DNA of 64,000 nucleotides from an uncultured Ramlibacter sp. (GTDB lineage: Bacteria; Pseudomonadota; Gammaproteobacteria; Burkholderiales; Burkholderiaceae_C). Shown here piece by piece: positions 52,907 through 64,000 of the stretch; within the stretch, counting starts at the first letter, position 1, and each line of letters starts with the position of its first letter. The stretch spans positions 124,001-188,000 of the forward strand of contig NZ_CAKZHQ010000003.1 in assembly GCF_936925435.1 (NCBI RefSeq). Reading direction: 5' to 3'. Under the pieces are notes generated by a model. It saw only the letters and a program-made list of their open reading frames with translations, ran no database searches and had not been told where the DNA came from. The translations under genes and the position numbers were made by a program.

Positions 52907-53779
52907 CTACTTGAAGCCCAGGCCCGCCAGGATGCGGGCGTGGTGGGCGATGTGGTCGGCCAGGAAGCTCTGGACGAAGTAGTAGCCGTGGTCGTAGCCG
53001 GCGTGGCGGCGCAGCTCCAGCGGCTGGCCTACCTGGGCGCAGGCCTGCTCGAAGAATTCGGGCTTGAGCTGCTCGTCCAAAAATTTGTCGTTCAGCCCCT
53101 GGTCGATGAGGATGCCCTCGGGATACGGCGCACTGCTGCTTGCCGCCATCAAGAGGCTGGCATCGTGCTTGGCCCATTCGTTCTTGTCCTCACCGAGGTA
53201 GCCGCTGAAGGCCTTGACGCCCCAGGGGCAGCGCGTCGGCGATGCAATCGGCGCGAAGGCCGAGACCGAACGGAAGACATCCGGATGGCGCAGGGCCAAG
53301 GTCAGCGCGCCGTGGCCGCCCATGGAATGGCCGCTGATGCCGATGCGGTCATCGGCGATGGGCAACTCCTTGACCAGCAGCGGCAGCAGCTCGCGCACGA
53401 TCCAGCTTTCCATGCGCCAGTGTTTGGCCCAGGGCTGCTGCGTGGCATCGAGGTAGAAGCCGGCGCCGACGCCGAAGTCCCAGTCGGCGGACTCACCGGG
53501 TGCGTTGGCGCCGCGCGGGCTGGTGTCAGGCGCGATGAGGATGATGCCGGCATCGACCGCCAGCCGCTGCGCGCCGGCCTTCATCGCAAAGGTTTCTTCG
53601 GTGCAAGTCAGGCCGGCCAGGTAGACCAGGGCCGGCACCTTGCCCAGGGCCTTGATGCGCGGCTGGGGCGGCAGGAAAACCGAGAAGCGCATCGGCAAGC
53701 CCACCTCGTTCGAGGCATGGCTGTAGAAGCGCTGCTCGCCGCCAAAGCAGGCGTGGGCGCTGAGGAGTTCCATCGCCAT
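52907..53779 (-). CDS. fghA: S-formylglutathione hydrolase
   Basis: A 290-residue serine hydrolase of the esterase D family. The nucleophile Ser is in GISGHSMGGHGALTLALR. The oxyanion region is LVYLAGLTCTEETFAMKAGA, and the acid and His lie in LIDQGLNDKFL and HAGYDHGYYF. It hydrolyses S-formylglutathione to formate and glutathione, the second step after AdhC. Start ATG 53779 overlaps the adhC stop; ATG 53773 is an alternative. Confidence 0.94.
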   Translation of the reverse strand: MAMELLSAHACFGGEQRFYSHASNEVGLPMRFSVFLPPQPRIKALGKVPALVYLAGLTCTEETFAMKAGAQRLAVDAGIILIAPDTSPRGANAPGESADWDFGVGAGFYLDATQQPWAKHWRMESWIVRELLPLLVKELPIADDRIGISGHSMGGHGALTLALRHPDVFRSVSAFAPIASPTRCPWGVKAFSGYLGEDKNEWAKHDASLLMAASSSAPYPEGILIDQGLNDKFLDEQLKPEFFEQACAQVGQPLELRRHAGYDHGYYFVQSFLADHIAHHARILAGLGFK

Positions 53780-54885
53780 CAGTACAGCACCACCGAACGG
53801 ATGGACTCGCCCTTGCGCATCAGCTCGAAACCCTTGTTGATGTCGGCCAGCGGCATGGTGTGGGTGATCAGCGGATCGATCGTGATCTTGCCTTCCATGT
53901 ACCAGTCGACGATTTTGGGCACGTCGGTGCGGCCGCGCGCGCCGCCAAAGGCCGAGCCTTCCCACTTGCGGCCCGTCACCAGCTGAAAGGGCCGCGTGCT
54001 GATCTCAGCGCCGGCCGGGGCCACGCCGATGATGATGCTGCGACCCCAGCCCTTGTGCGTGCACTCCAGGGCCTGGCGCATCACCTGGGTGTTGCCAATG
54101 CACTCGAAGCTGTAGTCGGCACCGCCGTCGGTCAGTTGCACGATGGCATCGACCACGTTGGGCACATCCTTCGGGTTGATGAAGTCGGTCATGCCGAACT
54201 GGCGCGCCATGGCTTCGCGGGCCGGGTTGAGGTCCACGCCGATGATCTTGCCGGCGCCCACCATCTTGGCGCCCTGGATCACGTTCAGGCCGATGCCGCC
54301 CAGGCCGAAGACCACCACGTTGGCGCCCGCCTCCACCTTGGCGGTGAACAGCACGGCACCGATGCCGGTGGTGACGCCGCAGCCGATGTAGCAGACCTTG
54401 TCGAAGGGCGCGTCCTCGCGGATCTTGGCCAGCGAGATCTCCGGCGCCACCGTGTAGTTGCTGAAGGTGGAGGTGCCCATGTAATGGAAGATGGGCTTGC
54501 CGCCAATGGAAAATCGGCTGGTGGCATCGGGCATCAGGCCTTTGCCCTGGGTGCCGCGAATCAGCTGGCACAGATTGGTCTTGCGCGACAGGCAGAACTT
54601 GCACTGACGGCATTCCGGCGTGTACAGGGGAATGACGTGGTCGCCCTTTTTCAGCGTGGTCACGCCCGGGCCCACATCGACGACGATGCCCGCGCCCTCG
54701 TGGCCCAGGATGGCCGGGAAGATGCCTTCGGGGTCGGCGCCCGACAACGTGAAGTCGTCCGTGTGGCAGATGCCCGTGGCCTTGATCTCCACCAGCACCT
54801 CGCCGGCGCGCGGGCCGTCCAGGTCCACGGTTTCGATGGAAAGGGGCTGGCCTGCTTGCCAGGCGACGGCGGCTTGGGTCTTCAT
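53779..54885 (-). CDS. adhC: S-(hydroxymethyl)glutathione dehydrogenase, class III alcohol dehydrogenase
   Basis: A 368-residue zinc dehydrogenase. Catalytic zinc ligands lie in [14 protein letters not shown] and [12 protein letters not shown]. The structural zinc loop is [18 protein letters not shown] binding is [20 protein letters not shown]. Length and motifs are typical of FrmA/AdhC, which oxidises the formaldehyde-glutathione adduct. It forms a two-gene operon with fghA. No frmR-type regulator is adjacent; the divergent TetR gene could be involved but seems to belong to the next cluster. Confidence 0.95.
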
Positions 54886-54967: not shown

Positions 54968-55597
54968 TTGAACACCACCCCCGTCCGCAAGCCGCGTGAG
55001 AACCGCGAGCGCATCATGGCCGCCATCCGCGAAGCAGCCATCGCCGAATTCAGCGAGAACGGCCTCAAGGGCACGTCCACCCAGGCCATCGCCGCCCGCG
55101 CCGGCCTGACCAAGCCCCAGCTGCACTACTACATCAAGGGCAAGGAAGAACTCTACGAAGAGCTCTTGATGTCGGTGATGTCCGACTGGAAGGGCATGTT
55201 CGACGCCGGCTCCACCGACCCAGGCAAGGTGTTGGGCGACTACATCCGCTCCAAGCTCGACCAGGCTTTCGACAAGCCCGAGATCTCGCGCATCTTCACC
55301 CGCGAGGTGCTCGATGGCGGCAAGAACCTGGCCAAGTTCTGGCCCGATTCGCGCGCCCGCACCCGCGAGAAGGCCAACATCATCAACAGCTGGATCGCCC
55401 GCGGCCTGATGCAGCCGGTCGACCCCTATGTGCTGCTCATGAGCATCTGGTCCATGACCCAGTTCTACGCCGACTCGGCCGTCCAGGTCCAGCAGCTGGT
55501 CAACCCGGGCCAGCCCGGCTTCCAGCCCGACCGCGAAGCCCTGGTGAAAGAACTCACCGCGCTGGTGTTGCGCGGCTGCGGGATTCCCACCGCCTGA
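54968..55597 (+). CDS. TetR-family regulator, RutR-like
   Basis: A 209-residue repressor. The N-terminal helix-turn-helix is GTSTQAIAARAGLTKPQLHY. The C-terminal domain follows RutR/YcdC closely in pattern (DYIRSKLDQAFDKPEISRIF, then WIARGLMQPVDPYVL, then IWSMTQFYADSAVQVQQL). RutR binds uracil and represses pyrimidine use. The start is a TTG at 54968; an ATG at 55016 would cut into the DNA-binding domain. A RutR-like half-palindrome lies 100 bases after the gene, over the predicted start of the next operon. Confidence 0.87.
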   Translation: MNTTPVRKPRENRERIMAAIREAAIAEFSENGLKGTSTQAIAARAGLTKPQLHYYIKGKEELYEELLMSVMSDWKGMFDAGSTDPGKVLGDYIRSKLDQAFDKPEISRIFTREVLDGGKNLAKFWPDSRARTREKANIINSWIARGLMQPVDPYVLLMSIWSMTQFYADSAVQVQQLVNPGQPGFQPDREALVKELTALVLRGCGIPTA

Positions 55598-55598
55598 C

Positions 55599-55664
55599 CG
55601 TCATTCCCGCGTCGGCGGGAATCCAGCGCGTCCAGAGGGATCCCGAGCAAGCCCCGGATGACAG
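55599..55664. repeat. Two palindromic repeats after the TetR gene
   Basis: 55599-55626: CGTCATTCCCGCGTCGGCGG then GAATCC. 55635-55664: AGGGATCCCGAGCAAGCCCC then GGATGACA. Hairpins at the end of the regulator gene, probably serving as terminator. Confidence 0.7.
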
Positions 55665-55677
55665 GCCAACCGGGTTC

Positions 55678-55692
55678 TGGCACGCTCTATGC
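55678..55692 (+). promoter_or_regulatory. Sigma-54 (-24/-12) promoter of the nitrogen-compound operon
   Basis: TGGCACG-CTCT-ATGC. GG and GC are exactly 10 bases apart, and the -24 box is a perfect TGGCACG; the -12 box differs from TTGC in one base. The predicted start is near 55703, 125 bases before the first gene. Confidence 0.65.
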
Positions 55693-55698
55693 GTAAGT

Positions 55699-55727
55699 TT
55701 GACCAATCGATCAGATTAAACGGTCAA
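55699..55727. promoter_or_regulatory. RutR-like operator
   Basis: TTGACCA-AT-CGATCAG (55699-55714): the left half is the exact RutR half-site, and the right half matches 4 of 7. A further GGTCAA at 55722-55727 makes a wider TTGACC...GGTCAA dyad. It covers the predicted sigma-54 start point. Confidence 0.55.
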
Positions 55728-55827
55728 GAAATGCAGCCCGCCTCTCACGCCAGCCTCCTGCCCGCCGCCGCAACGCACGGCGCGGGTGCATTCCTCCCAT
55801 TTGCGGTGCATTCCGCCTAGGCCCACC

Positions 55828-56415
55828 ATGCACGTCCTGGTCGTCTACTGCCACCCCGTCGAAACCAGTTTCGCTGCTGCACTGCACCAGGAAGTGGTTG
55901 CCAATCTCCAGGCCGCCGGCCACACGGTCGATGACCTGGACCTGTATGCCGAGGGTTTCAACCCGGTTCTCTCGCGCGAGGAGCGCCTGGGCTACCACGA
56001 CGTGCCGGCCAACCAGCTGCCGCTGGCGCCCTATGTGCAGCGCCTGCGCAAGGCCGAGGCCATCGTCTTTTGTTTCCCCACCTGGTGCTTCGGCCTGCCG
56101 GCCATGCTCAAGGGCTACTTCGACAGGCTCTTCATGCCCGGCGTGGCCTTCGACATCAGCGACCCGGCCAATGTCAAGCCCATGCTCACCCACATCAAGC
56201 GCATCTCCGCCGTCGTCACCTATGGCCGGCCGCGCTGGGTGGCCTGGTACATGGGCGACCCCCCGCGCAAGATCATCACCCGCTACATGAAGCGCCTGAC
56301 CGGCGACACGGCCAAGGTCGACTTCCACGCTTACTACCACATGAACATTGCGACCGAGCCCCGGCTGGCCGCGTTCAAGCGCCGGGTCGGCGAAGCGATG
56401 GCGAAGTTCGCATGA
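55828..56415 (+). CDS. NAD(P)H-dependent flavodoxin-fold oxidoreductase (NQO/KefF type)
   Basis: A 195-residue protein with the flavodoxin_2 fold: HVLVVYCHPVETSFAAALHQ at the FMN/FAD phosphate site, and CFPTWCFGLPAMLKGYFDRL, the classic family signature (x-W-x-x-G-x-P-A-x-L-K-G). It transfers electrons from NAD(P)H to quinone-like or ring substrates. It is the first gene of the operon and is coupled by ATGA to the amidohydrolase. Start ATG 55828. Confidence 0.85.
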   Translation: MHVLVVYCHPVETSFAAALHQEVVANLQAAGHTVDDLDLYAEGFNPVLSREERLGYHDVPANQLPLAPYVQRLRKAEAIVFCFPTWCFGLPAMLKGYFDRLFMPGVAFDISDPANVKPMLTHIKRISAVVTYGRPRWVAWYMGDPPRKIITRYMKRLTGDTAKVDFHAYYHMNIATEPRLAAFKRRVGEAMAKFA

Positions 56416-57665
56416 ACTCTATCACCGCCATCGCCAACGCCCGCTTGCCGCGCTGGCTGCTGGGCGATGCCTGGCCCTCGCAGGCCGGCCAGCCGGCGCT
56501 GGCTGCACTGACGATCGCGGAGGGCAAGGTGACATCGGTCACGCCCATGGGTGCAGCCGTGGCTGGCGCCTGGGATGTGAAGGGCGCCCCTGTGCTGCCG
56601 GGCTTCGTTGACGCCCACACCCATCTGGACAAGACCTTCACCCTGCCGCGCATGCGCCATGTGCAGCCCGGCCTGCTGGGCGCCATCGACGCCATGATGA
56701 CGGACAGGCTGGACTGGACCGAGGCCGATGTGCGCGAGCGCGCCGGCAAGGCGCTGCAATGGGCTTACGAAGCCGGCTGCGTTCATCTGCGCAGCCATGT
56801 GGACTGGTGGGAGCCCGAGGGCACGCCGCTCGCCTGGAATGTGCTTGCCTCGCTGGCCGATGAATGGCAGGGCCGCATTCGCCTGCAGCAGGTCGGCCTG
56901 ATCAAGCTCACCCTGTTCCAGGAACTGGCCCAGGCCCGCAAATTCGCGCAGCAGGTCAAGGCCACCGGCCCCCACGCCTTGCTGGGCGGCTTCGTGCACT
57001 CGGTCAACTGGGACGAGGGCGCGCTGCGCAACCTCTTCACCGCCGCTGGCGAGGCCGGCCTGGACGTGGACCTGCACGTCGATGAAGAACTCAACGCCGA
57101 CGCCAAGGGCCTGGCCGCGACGGCCCGCATCCTGCGCGAGACCGGTTTCAACGGCCGGGTGGTTTGCGGCCACACCTGTTCGCTGGCGGCCCAGCCTGAA
57201 ACGCAGGCCCTGGCCACGCTGGACGCAGTGGCGCAGGCGCCCATCACCCTGGTCTCGCTGCCCATCACCAACCTCTTGCTGCAGGACGCGCAGACCGGCC
57301 GCACGCCGCGCCAGCGCGGCCTGACCCTGGTCAAGGAAGCGCGCGAGCGCGGCATCCCGCTGCTGATCGCCAGCGACAACGTGCAAGACCCCTTCTGCCG
57401 CGTCGGCAGCTACGACCCGGTCGAGGCCCTGGCCGCAGGCGCTCTGGCGGCGCAGCTGCCCGAGCCGTTCGACACCTGGTCCGAAAGCCTGTGCCGCAGC
57501 GACTGGCTGGAGCGCAAGCCGCTGGCCACACCGTCCCTCGTTGGCGCATCCGCCGACCTGGTTGTCTTCCATGACGCCGACGCCTGGGGCTGGCCCTCGC
57601 GCGCCGCGCGCCGCACCGTGCTGCGCAACGGCATCCCGCTCACCCCTGTCGCCTCTTTCGCCTGA
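56412..57665 (+). CDS. Cytosine-deaminase-like amidohydrolase
   Basis: A 417-residue metal-dependent hydrolase. Metal ligands: PGFVDAHTHLDKT (His69, His71), DVDLHVDEELNADAK (His and the Glu-type proton carrier region), VCGHTCSLA (His) and ASDNVQDPF (Asp). The order and spacing match CodA and related deaminases/ring hydrolases. It probably deaminates or opens a nitrogen heterocycle. Overlaps the preceding gene by ATGA and is 12 bases from the creatininase gene. Confidence 0.85.
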   Translation: MNSITAIANARLPRWLLGDAWPSQAGQPALAALTIAEGKVTSVTPMGAAVAGAWDVKGAPVLPGFVDAHTHLDKTFTLPRMRHVQPGLLGAIDAMMTDRLDWTEADVRERAGKALQWAYEAGCVHLRSHVDWWEPEGTPLAWNVLASLADEWQGRIRLQQVGLIKLTLFQELAQARKFAQQVKATGPHALLGGFVHSVNWDEGALRNLFTAAGEAGLDVDLHVDEELNADAKGLAATARILRETGFNGRVVCGHTCSLAAQPETQALATLDAVAQAPITLVSLPITNLLLQDAQTGRTPRQRGLTLVKEARERGIPLLIASDNVQDPFCRVGSYDPVEALAAGALAAQLPEPFDTWSESLCRSDWLERKPLATPSLVGASADLVVFHDADAWGWPSRAARRTVLRNGIPLTPVASFA

Positions 57666-57677
57666 AAGGTCCACGCC

Positions 57678-58532
57678 ATGATCCACGGCTACATCCCCCC
57701 GCACCGCTTCCTGCCCTACCTGAGCTGGACCGAAATCAGTGCCCTGCCCGACCGCGAGAACACCGTCGTCGTGCTGCCTGTCGGCGCCATCGAGCAGCAT
57801 GGGCCGCACCTGCCCTGCTCGGTCGACAGCGTCATCTCCTCCGGCGTGATCGGCAAGGCGCTGGAAAAGCTGCCCGCCGAGATCCGCGCCTTCGGCATGG
57901 CCCCCATCACCTACGGCAAGTCGGACGAGCACCTGCACTTCCCCGGCACCATGACGCTGACCGGCCCCACCCTGCTGGCCACCATCATCGAGCTGGGCGA
58001 GTCGGTCTACCGCGCGGGCTTTCGCAAGTTCCTCATGCCCAATGGCCACGGCGGCCAGCCCCAGGTGCTGGAGATGGCGGCGCGCGAGATGCGCCTGCGC
58101 CATGGCGACTTCCTGGTCATTCCCTACCATGTGTCGCGCCTGCCCAATGCCTCGGGCAAGTACGTGTCGGACGAGGAAAAGCGCCTGGCCATGCACGCCG
58201 GCCATTCGGAAACGGCGTTGATGATGGCGCTGGCGCCCGACACGGTGCACATGGAGCGCGCGGTGGCCAACATCCCGCCGCCCTTCCCCTCCAAGATCCT
58301 GTCAGCCGACGGCCGGCCGGCCTGCGCCTGGACGGCGCGCGACTTCGGCCCCAGCGGCATCATCGGCGACCCCTTGGGCGCCACCCGCGAGCAGGGCCTG
58401 CACATCCTGGACACCTTGTCCGACAGCTGGGTCACGGCCATCACCGACATCTTCCGCATGCAGTGGCTGGTGCGCGAAGAACAGAGCTGGGGCTACGGCC
58501 ACCAGACCGGCCATATCCAGGCCGCCCTGTAG
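57678..58532 (+). CDS. Creatininase-family amidohydrolase
   Basis: A 284-residue protein of the creatininase superfamily: VLPVGAIEQHGPHLPCSVDS gives the Glu, His and Asp metal ligands, MPNGHGGQPQVLEMA the next His, and HAGHSETALMM the Glu. Members hydrolyse cyclic amides such as creatinine or the formamidopyrimidine intermediate of riboflavin/deazaflavin synthesis. Here it follows a deaminase in a transport-linked operon, so ring opening of an imported cyclic amide is likely. Its TAG abuts the second sigma-54-like site. Confidence 0.87.
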   Translation: MIHGYIPPHRFLPYLSWTEISALPDRENTVVVLPVGAIEQHGPHLPCSVDSVISSGVIGKALEKLPAEIRAFGMAPITYGKSDEHLHFPGTMTLTGPTLLATIIELGESVYRAGFRKFLMPNGHGGQPQVLEMAAREMRLRHGDFLVIPYHVSRLPNASGKYVSDEEKRLAMHAGHSETALMMALAPDTVHMERAVANIPPPFPSKILSADGRPACAWTARDFGPSGIIGDPLGATREQGLHILDTLSDSWVTAITDIFRMQWLVREEQSWGYGHQTGHIQAAL

Positions 58533-58546
58533 GCGCACTCCTTGCA
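58531..58546 (+). promoter_or_regulatory. Sigma-54-like promoter before the ABC importer genes
   Basis: AGGCGCA-CTCC-TTGCA. GG and GC are 10 bases apart, the -12 box is perfect, and the -24 box is weaker (4 of 7). It starts at the creatininase stop, the same position relative to a stop as the site at 63031, and both are followed by TC. Confidence 0.45.
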
Positions 58547-58592
58547 TCGACCCGCTTTCCTTTTCACCCCCACTTCACTTCAAGAGGTCACC

Positions 58593-59579
58593 ATGAAAGC
58601 TTTCTCCGCACGCACCCTCCTGGCCGCCTCGCTCGGTCTGGCCTTTGCCGCCGGCGCCCAGGCCCAGGAAAAGCTCACCTACATGACCAACTGGTATGCC
58701 CAGGCCGAGCACGGCGGCTTCTACCAGGCGGTGGCCACCGGCATCTACAAGAAGTACGGCCTGGACGTGACCATCAAGATGGGCGGCCCGCAGGTCAACA
58801 TCATGCAGATGCTGGGCGCGGGACAGGCAGACTGCATCATGGGTTCGAGCGACCTGCAGATCATCCGGGCGCGCAGCAACGGCCTGCCCATCGTGACCCT
58901 GGCCGCCAGCTTCCAGAAAGACCCGCAGGTCCTGATCGCCCACGAGGACGTGAAGAAGTTCGAGGACATGAAGGGCAAGACCATCCTCATCGCCTCGTCG
59001 GCGCGCGAGGGCTACTGGCTTTGGCTGAAGAACAAGTACGGTTTCTCCGACGACCAGACCAAGCCCTACACCTTCAACATCCAGCCCTTTGTCGCCGACA
59101 AGAACACGGTGCAGCAGGGCTACCTGACCAGCGAGCCCTTCGCGGTGCAAAAGGCTGGCGTCAAGGCCAACTCCTTCCTGTTTGCCGACCAGGGCTGGCC
59201 GGCCTACTCCACCACCATCTCCTGCCTGGAAGACACCATCAAGGCCAAGCCCAAGGCCATGGAAGCCTTCGTCAAGGGCACGATGGAAGGCTGGAAGAGC
59301 TTCCTGGCCGACCCGGCGCCCGCCTCGGCCCTGATCAAGAAGGACAACCCCAACATGACCGACGAGCAGCTCGCGTACAGCGTGGCCAAGCTCAAGGAAA
59401 TGGGCATCGTCACCGGCGGCGGCGCGGCCAAGAGCGGCATCGGCAGCATGGAAGAGTCGCGCCTCAAGGCCAACTACGACTTCCTGGTGAGCAACAAGCT
59501 GATCGACCCGGCCAAGGTGCCGTCGGCGACCGCGTCCTACAACTTCACGTACATCAAAGACCTGAAGGTGATGCCGTGA
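58593..59579 (+). CDS. ABC transporter substrate-binding protein (NMT1/THI5-like)
   Basis: A 328-residue periplasmic protein with signal peptide (LLAASLGLAFAAGAQAQ). The NMT1/THI5-type motif reads YMTNWYAQAEHGGFYQAVAT then GIYKKYGLDVTI. Proteins of this group bind pyrimidines (ThiY), riboflavin-like rings or sulfonates. AGAGG precedes ATG 58593. It is paralogous to the partial gene at 63172. Followed directly by its ATPase and permease genes. Confidence 0.9.
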   Translation: MKAFSARTLLAASLGLAFAAGAQAQEKLTYMTNWYAQAEHGGFYQAVATGIYKKYGLDVTIKMGGPQVNIMQMLGAGQADCIMGSSDLQIIRARSNGLPIVTLAASFQKDPQVLIAHEDVKKFEDMKGKTILIASSAREGYWLWLKNKYGFSDDQTKPYTFNIQPFVADKNTVQQGYLTSEPFAVQKAGVKANSFLFADQGWPAYSTTISCLEDTIKAKPKAMEAFVKGTMEGWKSFLADPAPASALIKKDNPNMTDEQLAYSVAKLKEMGIVTGGGAAKSGIGSMEESRLKANYDFLVSNKLIDPAKVPSATASYNFTYIKDLKVMP

Positions 59580-60397
59580 TGCGAGAGCCCCCTGCCGCCC
59601 TGGACGCGGCCGTCCCCGCCGTCGAAGTGCTGTCGGCGCACAAGACCTACCCCAACGGGACGGTCGCGCTGCAGCCTGTGGAACTGACGGTCCAGGAGGG
59701 TGAGTTCATCACCCTCCTGGGCCCCTCGGGCTGCGGCAAGAGCACCCTGCTCAAGATGGTGGCCGGCCTGCTCGACCCCACCGATGGCCGCCTGCTGCTG
59801 TGGCGCAAGCCGGTGGACCAGCTGGAGGCGTCGCAGCGCAAGCTGGCCTTCGTCTTCCAGGCGCCCACCCTCATGCCCTGGTCCAGCGTGGCCAGCAACG
59901 TGCGCCTGCCGCTGGACCTGGCCGGCTTGCCGCGCGCCGAGGCGGAGGCCCGCGTGGCCGACGCCCTGGCCCTGGTGGGCTTGACCAAGTTCGCCACCGC
60001 CTTGCCGCGCAACCTCTCGGGCGGCATGCAGATGCGCGTGTCCATCGCCCGCAGCCTGGTGGTGCAACCCAACCTGCTGCTGATGGACGAGCCCTTCGGC
60101 GCGCTGGACGAGATCACGCGCCACAAGCTCGATGCCGACCTCTTGCGCCTGTGGGCCGAGAAGAAGCTCACCGTCATCTTCGTCACCCACTCCATCCACG
60201 AAGCGGTCTTCCTGTCCAACCGCGTGGTGATGATGGCGGCCCGCCCGGGCCGCATCGTCGAAGAGGTGGTGATCGACGAGCCCTACCCGCGCACGTCCGA
60301 CTTCATGGTCAGCGCGCGCTTTGCCGAATATGCCAAGCGCCTGCAGGACAGCCTGCTGCGCGCCAGCCACGACACCGACGAGGACGCCACCGCATGA
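59579..60397 (+). CDS. ABC transporter ATP-binding protein (nitrate/sulfonate/taurine family)
   Basis: A 272-residue ATPase: GPSGCGKST, FVFQAPTLMPWSSVASNVRL (Q-loop typical of the SsuB/TauB/ThiZ group), LSGGMQMRVSIARSL, LLLMDEPFGALDEITR and VTHSIHEAV. It powers import with the adjacent permease. The start at 59579 overlaps the binding-protein stop (TGATG), and it is coupled to the permease by ATGA. Confidence 0.92.
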   Translation: MREPPAALDAAVPAVEVLSAHKTYPNGTVALQPVELTVQEGEFITLLGPSGCGKSTLLKMVAGLLDPTDGRLLLWRKPVDQLEASQRKLAFVFQAPTLMPWSSVASNVRLPLDLAGLPRAEAEARVADALALVGLTKFATALPRNLSGGMQMRVSIARSLVVQPNLLLMDEPFGALDEITRHKLDADLLRLWAEKKLTVIFVTHSIHEAVFLSNRVVMMAARPGRIVEEVVIDEPYPRTSDFMVSARFAEYAKRLQDSLLRASHDTDEDATA

Positions 60398-61197
60398 AAG
60401 CCGCCCCCCTGCTTGCCTCGCCGCGCGTGCAGCGCGTGCTGTATCCGTCCATCGTCGCCGTCGTGCTGCTGGGCGCCTGGCAGGCCCTGGTCAGCGGCCT
60501 GAAGCTGCCGCCCTACCTCGTGCCCTCGCCCATCCTGATGTTCCAGACCCTGGCCACCGAATGGCAGTCGCTGGGCGGCTCGCTGCTGGTGACGCTGAAG
60601 ATCACCCTGCTGTCGTTTGCCGTCGCCACCATCGTCGGCGTGCTGATCTCCTTCCTCTTCGTCCAAAGCCGGCGGATCGAGACGGCCTTGTTCCCCTACG
60701 CCGTGCTGCTGCAGGTCACGCCCATCGTCGCCGTGGCGCCGCTGATCATCATCTGGGTGAAGAACCCCACGGCCTCCCTGGTGGCCTGCGCCTCCCTGGT
60801 GGCGCTGTTTCCCATCATCTCCAACACCACGCTGGGCCTGCGCAGCATCGACCCCGACCTGCAAAGCTATTTCGCGATGAACCGCGCCAGCCGCCTGCAG
60901 ACCCTGGTGCGCCTGCGCATTCCGAGTGCGCTGCCCTACTTCTTCGGTGGCCTGCGCATCTCCAGCGGCCTGGCCCTGATCGGTGCCGTGGTGGCGGAGT
61001 TCGTCGCCGGCACCGGCGGCGCGGCCACCGGCCTGGCCTACCAGATCCTGATGGCCGGCTACCAGCTGAACATCCCGCGCATGTTCGCCGCCCTGCTGCT
61101 GATCTCGCTGGCCGGCGTAGGCCTGTTCGTGCTGATGGCCTGGCTGAGCAAACTCGCTCTCGGCAACTGGCACGCCAGCGAACTGTCCAGAGATTGA
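60394..61197 (+). CDS. ABC transporter permease (SsuC/ThiX-like)
   Basis: A 267-residue, six-helix permease of the BPD_transp_1 family: PPYLVPSPILMFQTLATEW at the N-terminal region and the EAA loop MNRASRLQTLVRLRIPSALP followed by YFFGGLRISSGLALIGAVVA. It completes the importer. ATG 60394 overlaps the ATPase stop. Followed after 13 bases by the FAD-linked oxidase. Confidence 0.92.
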   Translation: MKAAPLLASPRVQRVLYPSIVAVVLLGAWQALVSGLKLPPYLVPSPILMFQTLATEWQSLGGSLLVTLKITLLSFAVATIVGVLISFLFVQSRRIETALFPYAVLLQVTPIVAVAPLIIIWVKNPTASLVACASLVALFPIISNTTLGLRSIDPDLQSYFAMNRASRLQTLVRLRIPSALPYFFGGLRISSGLALIGAVVAEFVAGTGGAATGLAYQILMAGYQLNIPRMFAALLLISLAGVGLFVLMAWLSKLALGNWHASELSRD

Positions 61198-61210
61198 CAA
61201 GGTAAATGAA

Positions 61211-62575
61211 GTGAACGCACCCGCCCACCCCATCGAACAACTGACCGCCGAACTGGCGGACCTGGACTGGATCACCGACGAGGGCCGTGTCGGCCGCCTG
61301 TCGCAGGACTTCAACTGGTACAGCCCGGTGCTCAAGCGCCAGCTCGAAGGCAAGCGCGCCGCCGCCGCCGTGCGCCCGCGCAACGAGGACGAAATCAAGC
61401 GCCTGGTCAGCCTCTGCGCCCGCCTGCGCGTGCCCATCACGGTGCGCGGCAGCGGCACGGGCAACTACGGCCAAGCCGTGCCCTTGCAAGGCGGCGTGCT
61501 GCTGGACATGAGCGGCTACAACGCCTTTCTGTGGGCCAAAGGCGGCATCGCCCGGGCCCAGGCCGGGATCCGTCTGTGGGACCTGGAAAAGGAATGCAAG
61601 CCCCACGGCCTGGAGCTGCGCTGCATGCCGTCCACCTACCGCAGCGCCACCCTGGGCGGCCTGTTCGGCGGCGGCTTCGGCGGTGTCGGCTCGATCAACT
61701 ACGGCCCGCTGGGTTCGCGCGGCAACGTGCTGGGCATCCGTGCCATGAGCATCGAGGAAGAACCCCAGATCGTGGAGCTGCGCGGCCCCGACGCCCTGGC
61801 CATGCACCATGTCTGGGGCACGAACGGCCTGGTGCTGGAGCTGGAGTTCGCCATGGCGCCGGTGCACGACTGGATGGAGGCCATCGTCACCTTCGGCAGC
61901 TTCGATACGGCGCTGGACTTTTGCGATGCGCTGTCGCGCTCGGCCGGCATCCTCAAGAAAGAAGTGGCCATGCTGGCCGCGCCCATCCCCGACCACATCA
62001 AGCAGCTGGCCGACTACCTGCCCACCGGCTGCCACGCCAGCATCGTGCTGGTGGCTGAAGAAAGCGAAGCCGCCTTCCTGGAGCTGGTGACCCAGTTCGG
62101 CGGCACTGTCAGCTACCGCAAGACCGCGGCCGAAGTGGCGGCCAGCAACCGCACCTTGCTGGAATACACCTGGAACCACACGACGCTGCACGCCATGCGG
62201 GTCGACAAGAACCTGACCTATCTGCAAAGCGCCTTCACCGCCGGCCAGCACCTGGAGCAGGTGCGCACCATGGAAAAGCTGCTGGGCGGCGAGGTGATGA
62301 TGCACACCGAGTTCATCCGCAACATGGATGGCCTGATGACCTGCACCGCCTTGCAACTGGTGAAGTTCAGCACCGAGGAACGATTGAACGAGATCATGCA
62401 GATCCACCGCGACAACGGTGTGCGCATCAACGACCCACACGTCTTCATCGTGGAAGACGGCCGAGCCAACGGCGAGCTGCCCGCCGCCGTGCTGGCCACC
62501 AAGCGCCGCTTCGATCCACACAATCTGCTCAACCCCGGCAAGGTCCGGACCTGGGCGCGGGGCATCCCCCAATGA
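61211..62575 (+). CDS. FAD-binding oxidoreductase (GlcD/PCMH-type)
   Basis: A 454-residue flavoenzyme with the PCMH FAD domain: VRPRNEDEIKRLVSLCARLR, VRGSGTGNYGQAVPLQGGV and STYRSATLGGLFGGGFGGVG. The C-terminal substrate domain ends with AVLATKRRFDPHNLLNPGK. Family members oxidise hydroxy acids or ring CH/NH bonds. In this cluster it could oxidise the imported ring or its open product. The start is GTG 61211; there is no competing ATG in frame nearby. Coupled to the RidA-like gene by a four-base overlap. Confidence 0.85.
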   Translation: MNAPAHPIEQLTAELADLDWITDEGRVGRLSQDFNWYSPVLKRQLEGKRAAAAVRPRNEDEIKRLVSLCARLRVPITVRGSGTGNYGQAVPLQGGVLLDMSGYNAFLWAKGGIARAQAGIRLWDLEKECKPHGLELRCMPSTYRSATLGGLFGGGFGGVGSINYGPLGSRGNVLGIRAMSIEEEPQIVELRGPDALAMHHVWGTNGLVLELEFAMAPVHDWMEAIVTFGSFDTALDFCDALSRSAGILKKEVAMLAAPIPDHIKQLADYLPTGCHASIVLVAEESEAAFLELVTQFGGTVSYRKTAAEVAASNRTLLEYTWNHTTLHAMRVDKNLTYLQSAFTAGQHLEQVRTMEKLLGGEVMMHTEFIRNMDGLMTCTALQLVKFSTEERLNEIMQIHRDNGVRINDPHVFIVEDGRANGELPAAVLATKRRFDPHNLLNPGKVRTWARGIPQ

Positions 62576-63030
62576 GCACGATGGGCAAGCCGATGGCCAA
62601 CTACGCAGCCGCAAAGCGCGTGGGCGACTTCGTCTTCCTCAGCGGCGTGGTGGCCGTCGATCCCATGCGCAAGGCCGTGGTGCAGAGCTACGAAGAACTG
62701 CCGGCCGAAGCCATGGAGCAATTGAAGAGCCTGGGCTACGTCACGGGCCAGATGACGGTGGACATCTACGAGGCGCCGGCCGTCGCGCAGAGCTGGTTCG
62801 TGCTCGACCGCATCCGCCAGATCGCCAGAGAGCATGGCGGCGAGATGAAGGACGCGGTCAAGCTGGTCCAGTACTTCCGCGACCTGCGCCACTACCCGTT
62901 CTACAACCGCGTGCGCGGCCTGTTCTACCCCGGTGAACCACCGGTGAGCACGGTGGTCGAAGTGGCGCGCTTCATGCCCGGCGATGGTGCGTTGATCGAA
63001 GTGGAGGCAACGCTGTACCTGCCCAAGTAG
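62572..63030 (+). CDS. RidA-superfamily protein lacking the catalytic arginine
   Basis: A 152-residue protein with the RidA fold pattern (AKRVGDFVFLSGVVAVDPMR, and YPFYNRVRGLFYPGEPPVST). The position of the catalytic Arg of archetypal RidA is Val125 here (PPVSTVVEV rather than PARSTV), so imine hydrolysis by the usual mechanism is unlikely. It is larger than RidA by about 25 residues. RutC of the pyrimidine pathway is a RidA relative, which makes its place in a RutR-linked cluster notable. Its TAG is followed directly by the third sigma-54 site. Confidence 0.85.
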   Translation: MSTMGKPMANYAAAKRVGDFVFLSGVVAVDPMRKAVVQSYEELPAEAMEQLKSLGYVTGQMTVDIYEAPAVAQSWFVLDRIRQIAREHGGEMKDAVKLVQYFRDLRHYPFYNRVRGLFYPGEPPVSTVVEVARFMPGDGALIEVEATLYLPK

Positions 63031-63046
63031 TGGCACGCCACTTGCA
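63031..63046 (+). promoter_or_regulatory. Sigma-54 (-24/-12) promoter of the second binding-protein gene
   Basis: TGGCACG-CCAC-TTGCA: both boxes are perfect and GG/GC are 10 bases apart. It starts at the base after the RidA-like stop. The predicted transcription start is near 63057. Confidence 0.8.
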
Positions 63047-63171
63047 TCAAATTTGACGGAGTAGAAGCAGTCAACGGCGCCAGCGCCGTGGGTCATTGCT
63101 CTGGCGGTGGAAGAGCTCCACCGTGCGCCGATCTGGCGCTTTGTGTTCCACGACATGACCGGAGAAACTGC
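63047..63171 (+). other. Structured leader of the second binding-protein gene
   Basis: About 115 bases of 5' leader with two hairpins: CGGCGC-CA-GCGCCG (63075-63088, which would have to melt or fold as a cruciform) and CGGTGGA-AGAGC-TCCACCG (63105-63123). GGAGAA lies before the ATG. No match to a known riboswitch was recognised. Confidence 0.45.
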
Positions 63172-64000
63172 ATGAAACGCGTCCTCGCATCCTTTGCCCT
63201 TGCCGCAACCGCCCTCGCCTCCCAGGCGCAGGACAAAGTCACCTTCCTCACCTCCTGGTACGCCCAGGCCGAACACGGCGGCTACTACCAGGCCATCGCC
63301 ACCGGCATCTACAAAAAATACGGCCTCGACGTCACCGTCAAGATGGGCGGCCCCCAGGTCAATGCGATCCAGATCATCGCCGCCGGCCAGGCCGACTTCA
63401 TCATGGGCAAGGACTTCCAGACCCTGTCGGCCATCGAGAACGGCGTGCCCCTGACCACGGTGGCGGCTGTGTTCCAGATGGAGCCCCAGGGCATGGTGAC
63501 GCACACCGACGTCAAGGGCCTGGCCGACCTCAAGGGCAAGACCATCCTGCTGGCCACCAGCGGCCGCACCAGCTGGTGGCCCTGGCTGAAGATCAAGCAC
63601 GGCCTGAAAGACGACCAGACCCGTCCCTACACCTTCAGCATGGCGCCCTTCTTCGCCGACCCGAACATGGCACAGCAGGGCTACCCCGGCTCCGAGCCCT
63701 TCATCGCCGAGAAGGCCGGCCAGAAGGTCAAGTTCTTCCTGTTCGCCGACGAAGGCTATCCGCCGTATGGCAACACCATCGTCACCACGCGCCAGATGGT
63801 CAAGGACAAGCCCGAACTGGTGCAGCGCTTCGTCAAGGCCACGCTGGAAGGCTGGAAGAGCTACCTGGCCAACCCGGCGCCCGGCAACGCGCTGATCAAG
63901 CAGGACAACCCCAAGATGGAAGACGAGCTGATCGCCTATTCCGTCAAGACCATGAAGGAGATGAAGTTCATGGACGGCGGCGATGCTGCCAAACTGGGCG
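63172..64000 (+). CDS. ABC transporter substrate-binding protein (NMT1/THI5-like), 3' end outside window
   Basis: 276 residues are present and the frame is still open at the window end. Signal peptide LASFALAATALASQAQ, then FLTSWYAQAEHGGYYQAIAT and GIYKKYGLDVTV, a close paralogue of 58593-59579. Differences in the ligand-facing part (MGKDFQTLSAIENG against MGSSDLQIIRARSNG) suggest a related but different ligand. It has its own strong sigma-54 promoter. Further transport genes may follow outside the window. Confidence 0.9.
   Translation, partial: MKRVLASFALAATALASQAQDKVTFLTSWYAQAEHGGYYQAIATGIYKKYGLDVTVKMGGPQVNAIQIIAAGQADFIMGKDFQTLSAIENGVPLTTVAAVFQMEPQGMVTHTDVKGLADLKGKTILLATSGRTSWWPWLKIKHGLKDDQTRPYTFSMAPFFADPNMAQQGYPGSEPFIAEKAGQKVKFFLFADEGYPPYGNTIVTTRQMVKDKPELVQRFVKATLEGWKSYLANPAPGNALIKQDNPKMEDELIAYSVKTMKEMKFMDGGDAAKLG

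Follow-up and report, generated by a model that had tools for sequence, protein, structure and literature searches.

Introduction

Pterins, whose ring system is found in folate and in the wing pigments of insects, are produced, like the folates, by a very large number of organisms. To our knowledge, the genes by which the nitrogen of these compounds is recycled have mostly been described as isolated enzymes. Here, a gene cluster is described that lies at the end of a 64,000-nucleotide stretch of DNA from an uncultured Ramlibacter sp. (positions 124,001–188,000 of contig 3 of the source genome; the whole stretch is called the window) and runs past its edge. The cluster is probably a two-module operon for scavenging nitrogen from pteridines, in which a TetR repressor would gate one of the two sigma-54 promoters and a riboswitch of the xanthine class the other. 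Positions are given in window numbering, which is obtained by adding 54,499 to positions of the genome locus L009.

Taken piece by piece, the parts are already known: the riboswitch class, the families of the deaminase and of the flavin oxygenase, and a related pterin deaminase. Amidohydrolases encoded in Sargasso Sea DNA act as deaminases on isoxanthopterin and pterin-6-carboxylate (PMC5270733, citing Hall et al. 2010), and the same deaminase work is cited in PMC11121863. The pterin deaminase of Variovorax sp. F1 is 399 residues long and active on folic and pteroic acid, and its gene is followed by a conserved one for an "endoribonuclease" (PMC9513972). The xanthine (NMT1) riboswitch is an OFF switch with a dissociation constant of about 3.7 µM for xanthine and 25 µM for urate; PRK12393 is among its associated genes, which are interpreted as purine oxidation and include none for the breakdown of oxidised purines (PMC7373994). 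This riboswitch reads the C2 urea edge and O6 of the ligand, whose C8 is open to solvent (PMC8266621).

Enzymes of the Operon and Their Relatives

The original prediction, made from the window alone, had proposed a pyrimidine-, creatinine- or hydantoin-like ring as the substrate. For two enzymes of the operon, however, the nearest relatives with a solved structure point to a pteridine. One of these enzymes is encoded outside the window, since the operon is cut by the edge at 64,000; on the genome contig, three further genes follow on the same strand, and then genes on the opposite strand. The last of the three (window-equivalent 66,242–67,660, plus strand) encodes a 472-residue amidohydrolase. 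Its top solved relative is 2PAJ (672 bits), which we take to be the isoxanthopterin deaminase of Hall et al. 2010, and the runner-up among solved structures, filed as 8-oxoguanine deaminase / hydroxydechloroatrazine ethylaminohydrolase, reaches 264 bits. The operon deaminase is 66% identical to 2PAJ over 465 residues, as against 35–39% for 18 paralogues of related genomes. It passes the NCBIfam model PRK12393/NF009059 (727 bits, cut-off 543), and 18 of 299 genomes of the family encode a deaminase over this cut-off, with no score between 605 and 420 bits. Its sequence marks it as a relative of the isoxanthopterin (2PAJ) type and points to a pteridine substrate. An assignment as 8-oxoguanine deaminase was rejected on the identity to 2PAJ, the scores of the solved relatives and the neighbourhoods of the paralogues. 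The automatic names of PRK12393 (amidohydrolase family protein) and PRK07583 (cytosine deaminase) may hide pterin-type deaminases.

The other enzyme is the flavin adenine dinucleotide (FAD)-dependent oxygenase, an FAD_binding_4 protein (61,211–62,575, plus strand). In both sequence and fold, it matches over its full length the structure 6V42, whose PDB title is that of a flavin oxygenase "involved in folate catabolism"; a search of the open-access literature found no paper on the 6V42/6V43 oxygenase.

The CodA-like amidohydrolase (56,412–57,665, plus strand) also has relatives of the pterin deaminase type. In a tree of 39 proteins with long branches, in which the F1 sequence was not included, the cytosine deaminases are split off (support 100/100) from the clade of the window protein and the pterin-deaminase-type clade, which fall on the same side but stand apart from each other. 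In three of the four Variovorax genomes searched, a second CodA-like homologue with 39–40% identity is encoded besides the window-type copy; none was found in ISL-81. The second gene of V. paradoxus NBRC 15149 encodes exactly 399 residues and is followed by a RidA gene whose product is 75% identical to that of the window; the paralogous cluster continues on the opposite strand with genes for a TetR protein, ferredoxin-reductase, flavodoxin, binding protein, FAD oxygenase, permease, ATPase and creatininase. The 399-residue protein and RidA of this locus (L137) match the F1 pterin deaminase in length and gene order, and the FAD oxygenase paralogue of L137 is 36–38% identical to that of the window.

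Around these enzymes, the gene types named in the original prediction are all present as open frames of the expected families, all on the plus strand. They comprise a flavodoxin-fold NAD(P)H/FMN reductase (55,828–56,415; Pfam Flavodoxin_2, 98.9 bits), a creatininase-family hydrolase (57,678–58,532; Pfam Creatininase, 225.9 bits), an NMT1/THI5-type substrate-binding protein (58,593–59,579; Pfam NMT1, 103.6 bits), an ABC transporter ATPase (59,579–60,397; Pfam ABC_tran) and permease (60,394–61,197; Pfam BPD_transp_1), a RidA-family protein of the enamine/imine hydrolase type (62,572–63,030; Pfam Ribonuc_L-PSP) and a second NMT1/THI5-type binding protein (63,172–64,000 in the window, continuing to 64,128). 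The TetR gene (54,968–55,597) falls just outside the region first proposed, which began at 55,599. The description of these genes as nearly all overlapping held for four of the eight junctions from the flavodoxin gene to binding protein 2 (reductase/CodA-like, binding protein 1/ATPase, ATPase/permease and FAD oxygenase/RidA); the other four do not overlap, and a 141-nucleotide gap after the RidA gene contains a promoter and a riboswitch. The original prediction had missed that riboswitch as well as the genes beyond position 64,000. Besides the deaminase, the latter encode two Rieske oxygenases, both with Rieske and VanA_C domains and both on the plus strand, one of 350 residues (window-equivalent 64,144–65,196) and one of about 351 residues (about 65,190–66,245).

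Several members resemble enzymes of better-known pathways at a distance. The TetR protein scores 116 bits against the RutR model TIGR03613 (cut-off 368), the RidA protein 40.5 bits against RutC (cut-off 169.1), the CodA-like protein 309.8 bits against PRK07583 (cut-off 403) and the creatininase-family protein, which belongs to the Pfam superfamily, 89 bits against the creatininase equivalog TIGR04448 (cut-off 235). The best RutA score in the whole genome is 75.4 bits, with a cut-off of 498.3, in agreement with the earlier statement that no rutA-type enzyme is present. On these scores, a true cytosine deaminase, a true creatininase and membership in the rut operon were each rejected. In the Verticiella locus L065 (and L058), an isochorismatase-fold protein is added next to the creatininase-type gene; the best model for the L065 copy, the one tested, is RutB (139 bits, cut-off 378).

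Gene Linkage in Related Genomes

Within 9 kb of the 2PAJ-type deaminase gene, at least one gene for a Rieske oxygenase, an FAD oxygenase or an NMT1 binding protein is found in 15 of 18 loci (not in L104–L106), as against 0 of 18 loci for the next-best paralogues (Fisher p 2.9e-7), which have the PuuD urate oxidase nearby in 13 of 18; several contigs are short in both sets, and related genomes are not independent. Of these 18 deaminase loci, 8 also carry the FAD oxygenase. Modules A and B are divergent neighbours in Klebsiella pneumoniae and Rahnella victoriana. One side encodes the reductase, CodA-like protein, RidA, creatininase, binding protein, ATPase, permease and FAD oxygenase, and the other a LysR protein, binding protein, deaminase and 2OG-Fe(II) oxygenase.

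The oxygenase adjoining the deaminase can be of the Rieske or 2OG type, and its place is taken in three other loci by a molybdenum hydroxylase of the xanthine dehydrogenase type. No locus has both a Rieske and a molybdenum hydroxylase gene next to the deaminase (18 and 3 of 31 loci, duplicates included), which is not significant with three molybdenum loci. In L102, L103, L105 and L106, the 2PAJ-type deaminase gene is near genes for a UbiD decarboxylase and an Amidohydro_2 protein or NCS2 permease; molybdenum hydroxylase subunits are also encoded in L102, L103 and L106, and UbiX, PuuD and a HIU hydrolase in L103. A route from older enzymology leads from isoxanthopterin through tetraoxypteridine and xanthine-8-carboxylate to xanthine, and the gene set of these four loci fits it. 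The source genome encodes other molybdenum hydroxylases, but a search without a positive control gave no match there to the UbiD of L102, so this route is not argued for the source genome.

Divergent from the TetR gene, on the minus strand (52,907–54,885), lie genes that by eye resemble those for S-formylglutathione hydrolase and class III alcohol dehydrogenase (formaldehyde). Among related loci, the second of these genes (frmA) is retained by no more than L071, L042 and the duplicate of the latter, L072, and for this reason, formaldehyde removal is not argued.

The Promoter and Riboswitch of Module B

Between the RidA gene and that for binding protein 2 stand a sigma-54 promoter without mismatch, TGGCACGCCACTTGCA (63,031–63,046, plus strand), and the xanthine (NMT1) riboswitch aptamer RF03054 (63,054–63,106, plus strand; 53.3 bits, gathering threshold 36, E 4.9e-9 for the whole window). 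The aptamer shows the conserved strands GAGUAGAAGC and AUUGCUC and begins about where the sigma-54 transcript would start. Folding of the leader (63,050–63,190) gave nothing notable (z −0.65).

The same riboswitch occurs in the deaminase module of L041, L042, L071, L099, L100, L101, L107 (two), L108 (two), Klebsiella and Rahnella. It precedes the deaminase module in L041, Klebsiella and Rahnella and the Rieske gene in L047. Among the 299 genomes, it lies 1.3–3.9 kb from 8 of the 18 deaminase genes. Locus scans did not find it in L073, L102–L106, L142, L144 or L055. Fourteen loci with deaminase and FAD genes (L046, L048, L049, L053, L057, L059, L061–L063, L068, L085, L091, L093 and L096) were left to the genome-wide scan, which bears on them with no riboswitch in G009 and G101 and one on another contig in G001 and G115.

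The pairing of promoter and aptamer extends beyond this operon. A sigma-54-like site with at most two mismatches lies within 80 nucleotides upstream of 11 of 12 deaminase-linked aptamers and 30 of 38 aptamers from 20 other loci, where shuffled versions of these upstream stretches give 0.2 and 0.8; in all 41, the site begins 22–27 nucleotides before the aptamer. L146 and L047 add two more cases with two mismatches each. The set of 38 holds all aptamers of 20 loci chosen among the high-scoring of 95 sites, with G203 passed over as belonging to the same genus as G106; the contig of one of these loci, L165, has a deaminase gene 25.7 kb away, and another, L179, holds part of module A. The survey covers one bacterial family plus Klebsiella, Rahnella and a few named contigs, which is a part of the riboswitch class. 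In 18 of the 20 loci (L165–L184), the riboswitches form divergent pairs, in most cases flanked by the gene of a binding protein and that of an oxygenase of the Rieske or 2OG type. In 8 of the 20, including L167, whose copy was tested in Pfam, a urease accessory gene of the UreD type is near the riboswitch; these neighbours suggest urea as an end product.

The aptamers linked to the deaminase differ slightly from the others. Of the 12 linked to it, 9 have G directly after GAAGCN and C opposite, and 1 of the 38 others has G there; in 37 of the 38, the base is U, with A opposite in most and C in six. The two positions covary in part, and the pair is not drawn in the Rfam structure. The difference looks at least partly compensatory rather than a change of the pocket, and for this reason, it does not itself show a new ligand. 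The way in which the ligand is read, with C8 open to solvent, leaves room to ask whether a pteridine-2,4-dione fits. The word "lumazine" occurs in the main text of neither PMC7373994 nor PMC8266621. Isoxanthopterine appears as a purchase in the Methods of PMC7373994 and was probably tried as a ligand in that work. A negative result with isoxanthopterin would not bear on lumazines, since isoxanthopterin has a 2-amino group. It can be proposed tentatively, as a possibility with the odds somewhat against it, that the ligand of those NMT1 riboswitches which stand on pteridine modules is a pteridine-2,4-dione, such as the deaminase product 7-hydroxylumazine, instead of, or besides, xanthine, and that the class marks a sigma-54 nitrogen-scavenging regulon whose mRNAs start with the aptamer. 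If true, this would explain a question raised by PMC7373994, in which riboswitches are found with PRK12393 deaminases and dioxygenases but without genes that use oxidised purines. A term search of that paper gave no hit on sigma-54, "sigma" matching only the name of a supplier.

Control of Module A

Upstream of the reductase gene, a sigma-54-type promoter, TGGCACGCTCTATGCG (55,678–55,693, plus strand; two mismatches to TGGCAC-N5-TTGCW), is followed by the palindromic operator TGACCAATCGATCAGATTAAACGGTCA (TGACC-N17-GGTCA; 55,700–55,726, plus strand), probably the TetR site, which lies over the predicted transcription start. The TetR gene itself (plus strand, TTG start as called) encodes a member of the RutR-like fold family (TetR_C_3/YcdC-like; Pfam TetR_C_3, 102 bits). 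Promoter and operator stand together in 29 distinct sequences, with 21–24 nucleotides from the promoter start to the operator, and the promoter has no mismatch in 21 of these, one in 6 and two in 2, the window being among the last; it is exact at the same place in many relatives. The count takes operators with a promoter of at most two mismatches and removes exact duplicates, so that closely related strains remain; operators dropped from it are mostly chance or reverse-strand matches and include the second cluster of L080. The promoter display covered 20 chosen loci, some with promoters without an operator (L081, L084).

Further 3′, at 55,775–55,789 (plus strand), the site GCAC-N7-GTGC is suggestive of NtrC, resembling the NtrC sites of E. 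coli. It is exact in 7 of the 18 loci (among those 20) used for this test, with a mean best match of 0.61 mismatches vs 1.96 in shuffles; the control spacings N5 and N9 gave 1.78 and 1.67 mismatches vs about 1.95. RpoN and NtrC are both encoded in the source genome. The GG and GC elements are conserved with 10 nucleotides between them, and sigma-54 control of the operon, as first predicted, is supported by footprinting of conserved sites.

A Proposed Working of the Operon

A pathway can be drawn from these parts, in which the function of the control sites, the substrates, the reaction order and the ligands of the TetR protein and riboswitch are all predicted from the genes. The nitrogen sources would be pterins such as isoxanthopterin or 6-carboxypterin, or folate fragments, imported by the NMT1/THI5-type ABC system with its two binding proteins. 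The two Rieske oxygenases would hydroxylate or trim the pteridine, and the 2PAJ-type deaminase would turn its 2-amino group into a carbonyl, yielding a lumazine (pteridine-2,4-dione). The flavin oxygenase, together with the flavodoxin-fold reductase, would oxidise the ring, and the CodA-like and creatininase-family hydrolases and RidA would open and clean up cyclic amide, amidine and imine products, with the release of ammonia. Since both modules stand at sigma-54 promoters, their transcription would depend on an activator, for instance NtrC when nitrogen is limiting. The TetR protein, bound over the start site, would block module A until an inducer arrives, and the riboswitch would shut module B off when a 2,4-dioxo purine or pteridine builds up.

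Weighing the Alternatives

A number of observations weigh against a pteridine operon of two modules. The substrate is predicted from sequence, and 2PAJ is taken to be the enzyme of Hall et al. The 6V42 protein is about equally close to the window oxygenase (380 bits) and to the L137 paralogue beside a pterin-deaminase-type gene (357 bits), and is therefore not clearly an orthologue. The L137 protein may be the orthologue of the F1 enzyme, judging by length and gene order only, and the CodA-like clade, being only about 40% identical to the pterin-deaminase-type clade, may have a different substrate. No FAD oxygenase gene with at least 56% identity has an adjacent 2PAJ-type deaminase in 19 of the 27 genomes that carry one, and in Pantoea sp. 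SO10, the two genes are about 530 kb apart on one plasmid; module A can therefore do without module B nearby. L073 and L102–L106 have the deaminase without the riboswitch. As for control, the module A promoter of the window has its two mismatches, no promoter is recognised with the operator in the second L080 cluster, the promoter–operator pair was not found in 16 loci with a deaminase adjoining permease and FAD genes (several on short contigs), and the evidence for NtrC is moderate. Lastly, the riboswitch class binds xanthine and urate, which fits a purine pathway as well.

Purine scavenging of the hpx type, the strongest competitor, is unlikely. The operon would then deaminate and oxidise guanine, 8-oxoguanine or related purines, the riboswitch would sense the product, xanthine or urate, and the flavin oxygenase and hydrolases would break the purine. 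Besides the aptamer itself, the 20 other riboswitch loci speak for it: they hold NMT1 binding proteins and Rieske or 2OG oxygenases, with a small CDA-fold deaminase in 17 of 20, and are perhaps a guanine-type branch. Its best support is that the riboswitch occurs in 23 of the 27 genomes with the FAD oxygenase vs 33 of 272 others (p 2.4e-15, kinship ignored); among those 23, it is within 10 kb of the oxygenase in 7 and only on other contigs in 14. This co-occurrence equally fits a shared regulon for purine and pteridine scavenging. Against the purine reading, the operon deaminase is a relative of 2PAJ, which we take to be the enzyme reported to act on isoxanthopterin and pterin-6-carboxylate (PMC5270733); it is the paralogues of the 8-oxoguanine deaminase type that stand near urate oxidase and away from Rieske, FAD and NMT1 genes, and the solved relative of the flavin oxygenase is titled for folate catabolism.

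A pathway for a monocyclic ring (pyrimidine, creatinine or hydantoin) is very improbable: the CodA-like, creatininase-like, RidA and RutR-family members that suggested it all fall below their equivalog cut-offs, the genome has no RutA at cut-off, and relatives of bicyclic-ring enzymes are encoded in the same operon. Slightly less credible still is the demethylation of a methylated purine of the caffeine type by the Rieske pair with deamination afterwards, since Rieske 2 matches NdmA (126 bits) but scores higher on SxtDIOX (140 bits) and SxtT (132 bits), the operon has no gene for a Rieske-type reductase, and the flavin oxygenase and deaminase point to other substrates.

Comparison with Known Systems

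The pteridine operon proposed here unites a transporter and switches with relatives of three enzymes, namely an orphan deaminase, a folate-catabolism flavin oxygenase and a pterin deaminase, and makes a pterin pathway open to knock-out tests in laboratory Variovorax strains. Neither a description of the whole operon nor a xanthine riboswitch with pteridine genes was found in the open-access literature searched, so that the claim of an undescribed system stands for the whole and fails for its single enzymes. The riboswitch is placed in a context new to it, and most of the copies surveyed follow closely on a sigma-54-like promoter, which bears on its purpose.

With the rut pyrimidine operon, the locus shares the logic of a RutR-family TetR protein, sigma-54, RidA and a flavin oxygenase, and it differs in having no RutA, another flavoprotein family and other hydrolases. 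The original view of a nitrogen-ring catabolic operon with an importer, analogous to the rut operon but distinct from it, is supported, with scores far below the RutR and RutC cut-offs. The pterin deaminases of Variovorax sp. F1 and Arad3529 (PMC9513972) compare with the 399-residue deaminase that precedes RidA in the paralogous cluster of Variovorax; the window CodA-like protein, about 40% identical, belongs to another clade. 2PAJ is an orphan from environmental DNA, and its relative here sits in a full operon context. The xanthine (NMT1) riboswitch RF03054 (PMC7373994, PMC8266621) is present here above the Rfam threshold and stands on a deaminase module of the pteridine type.

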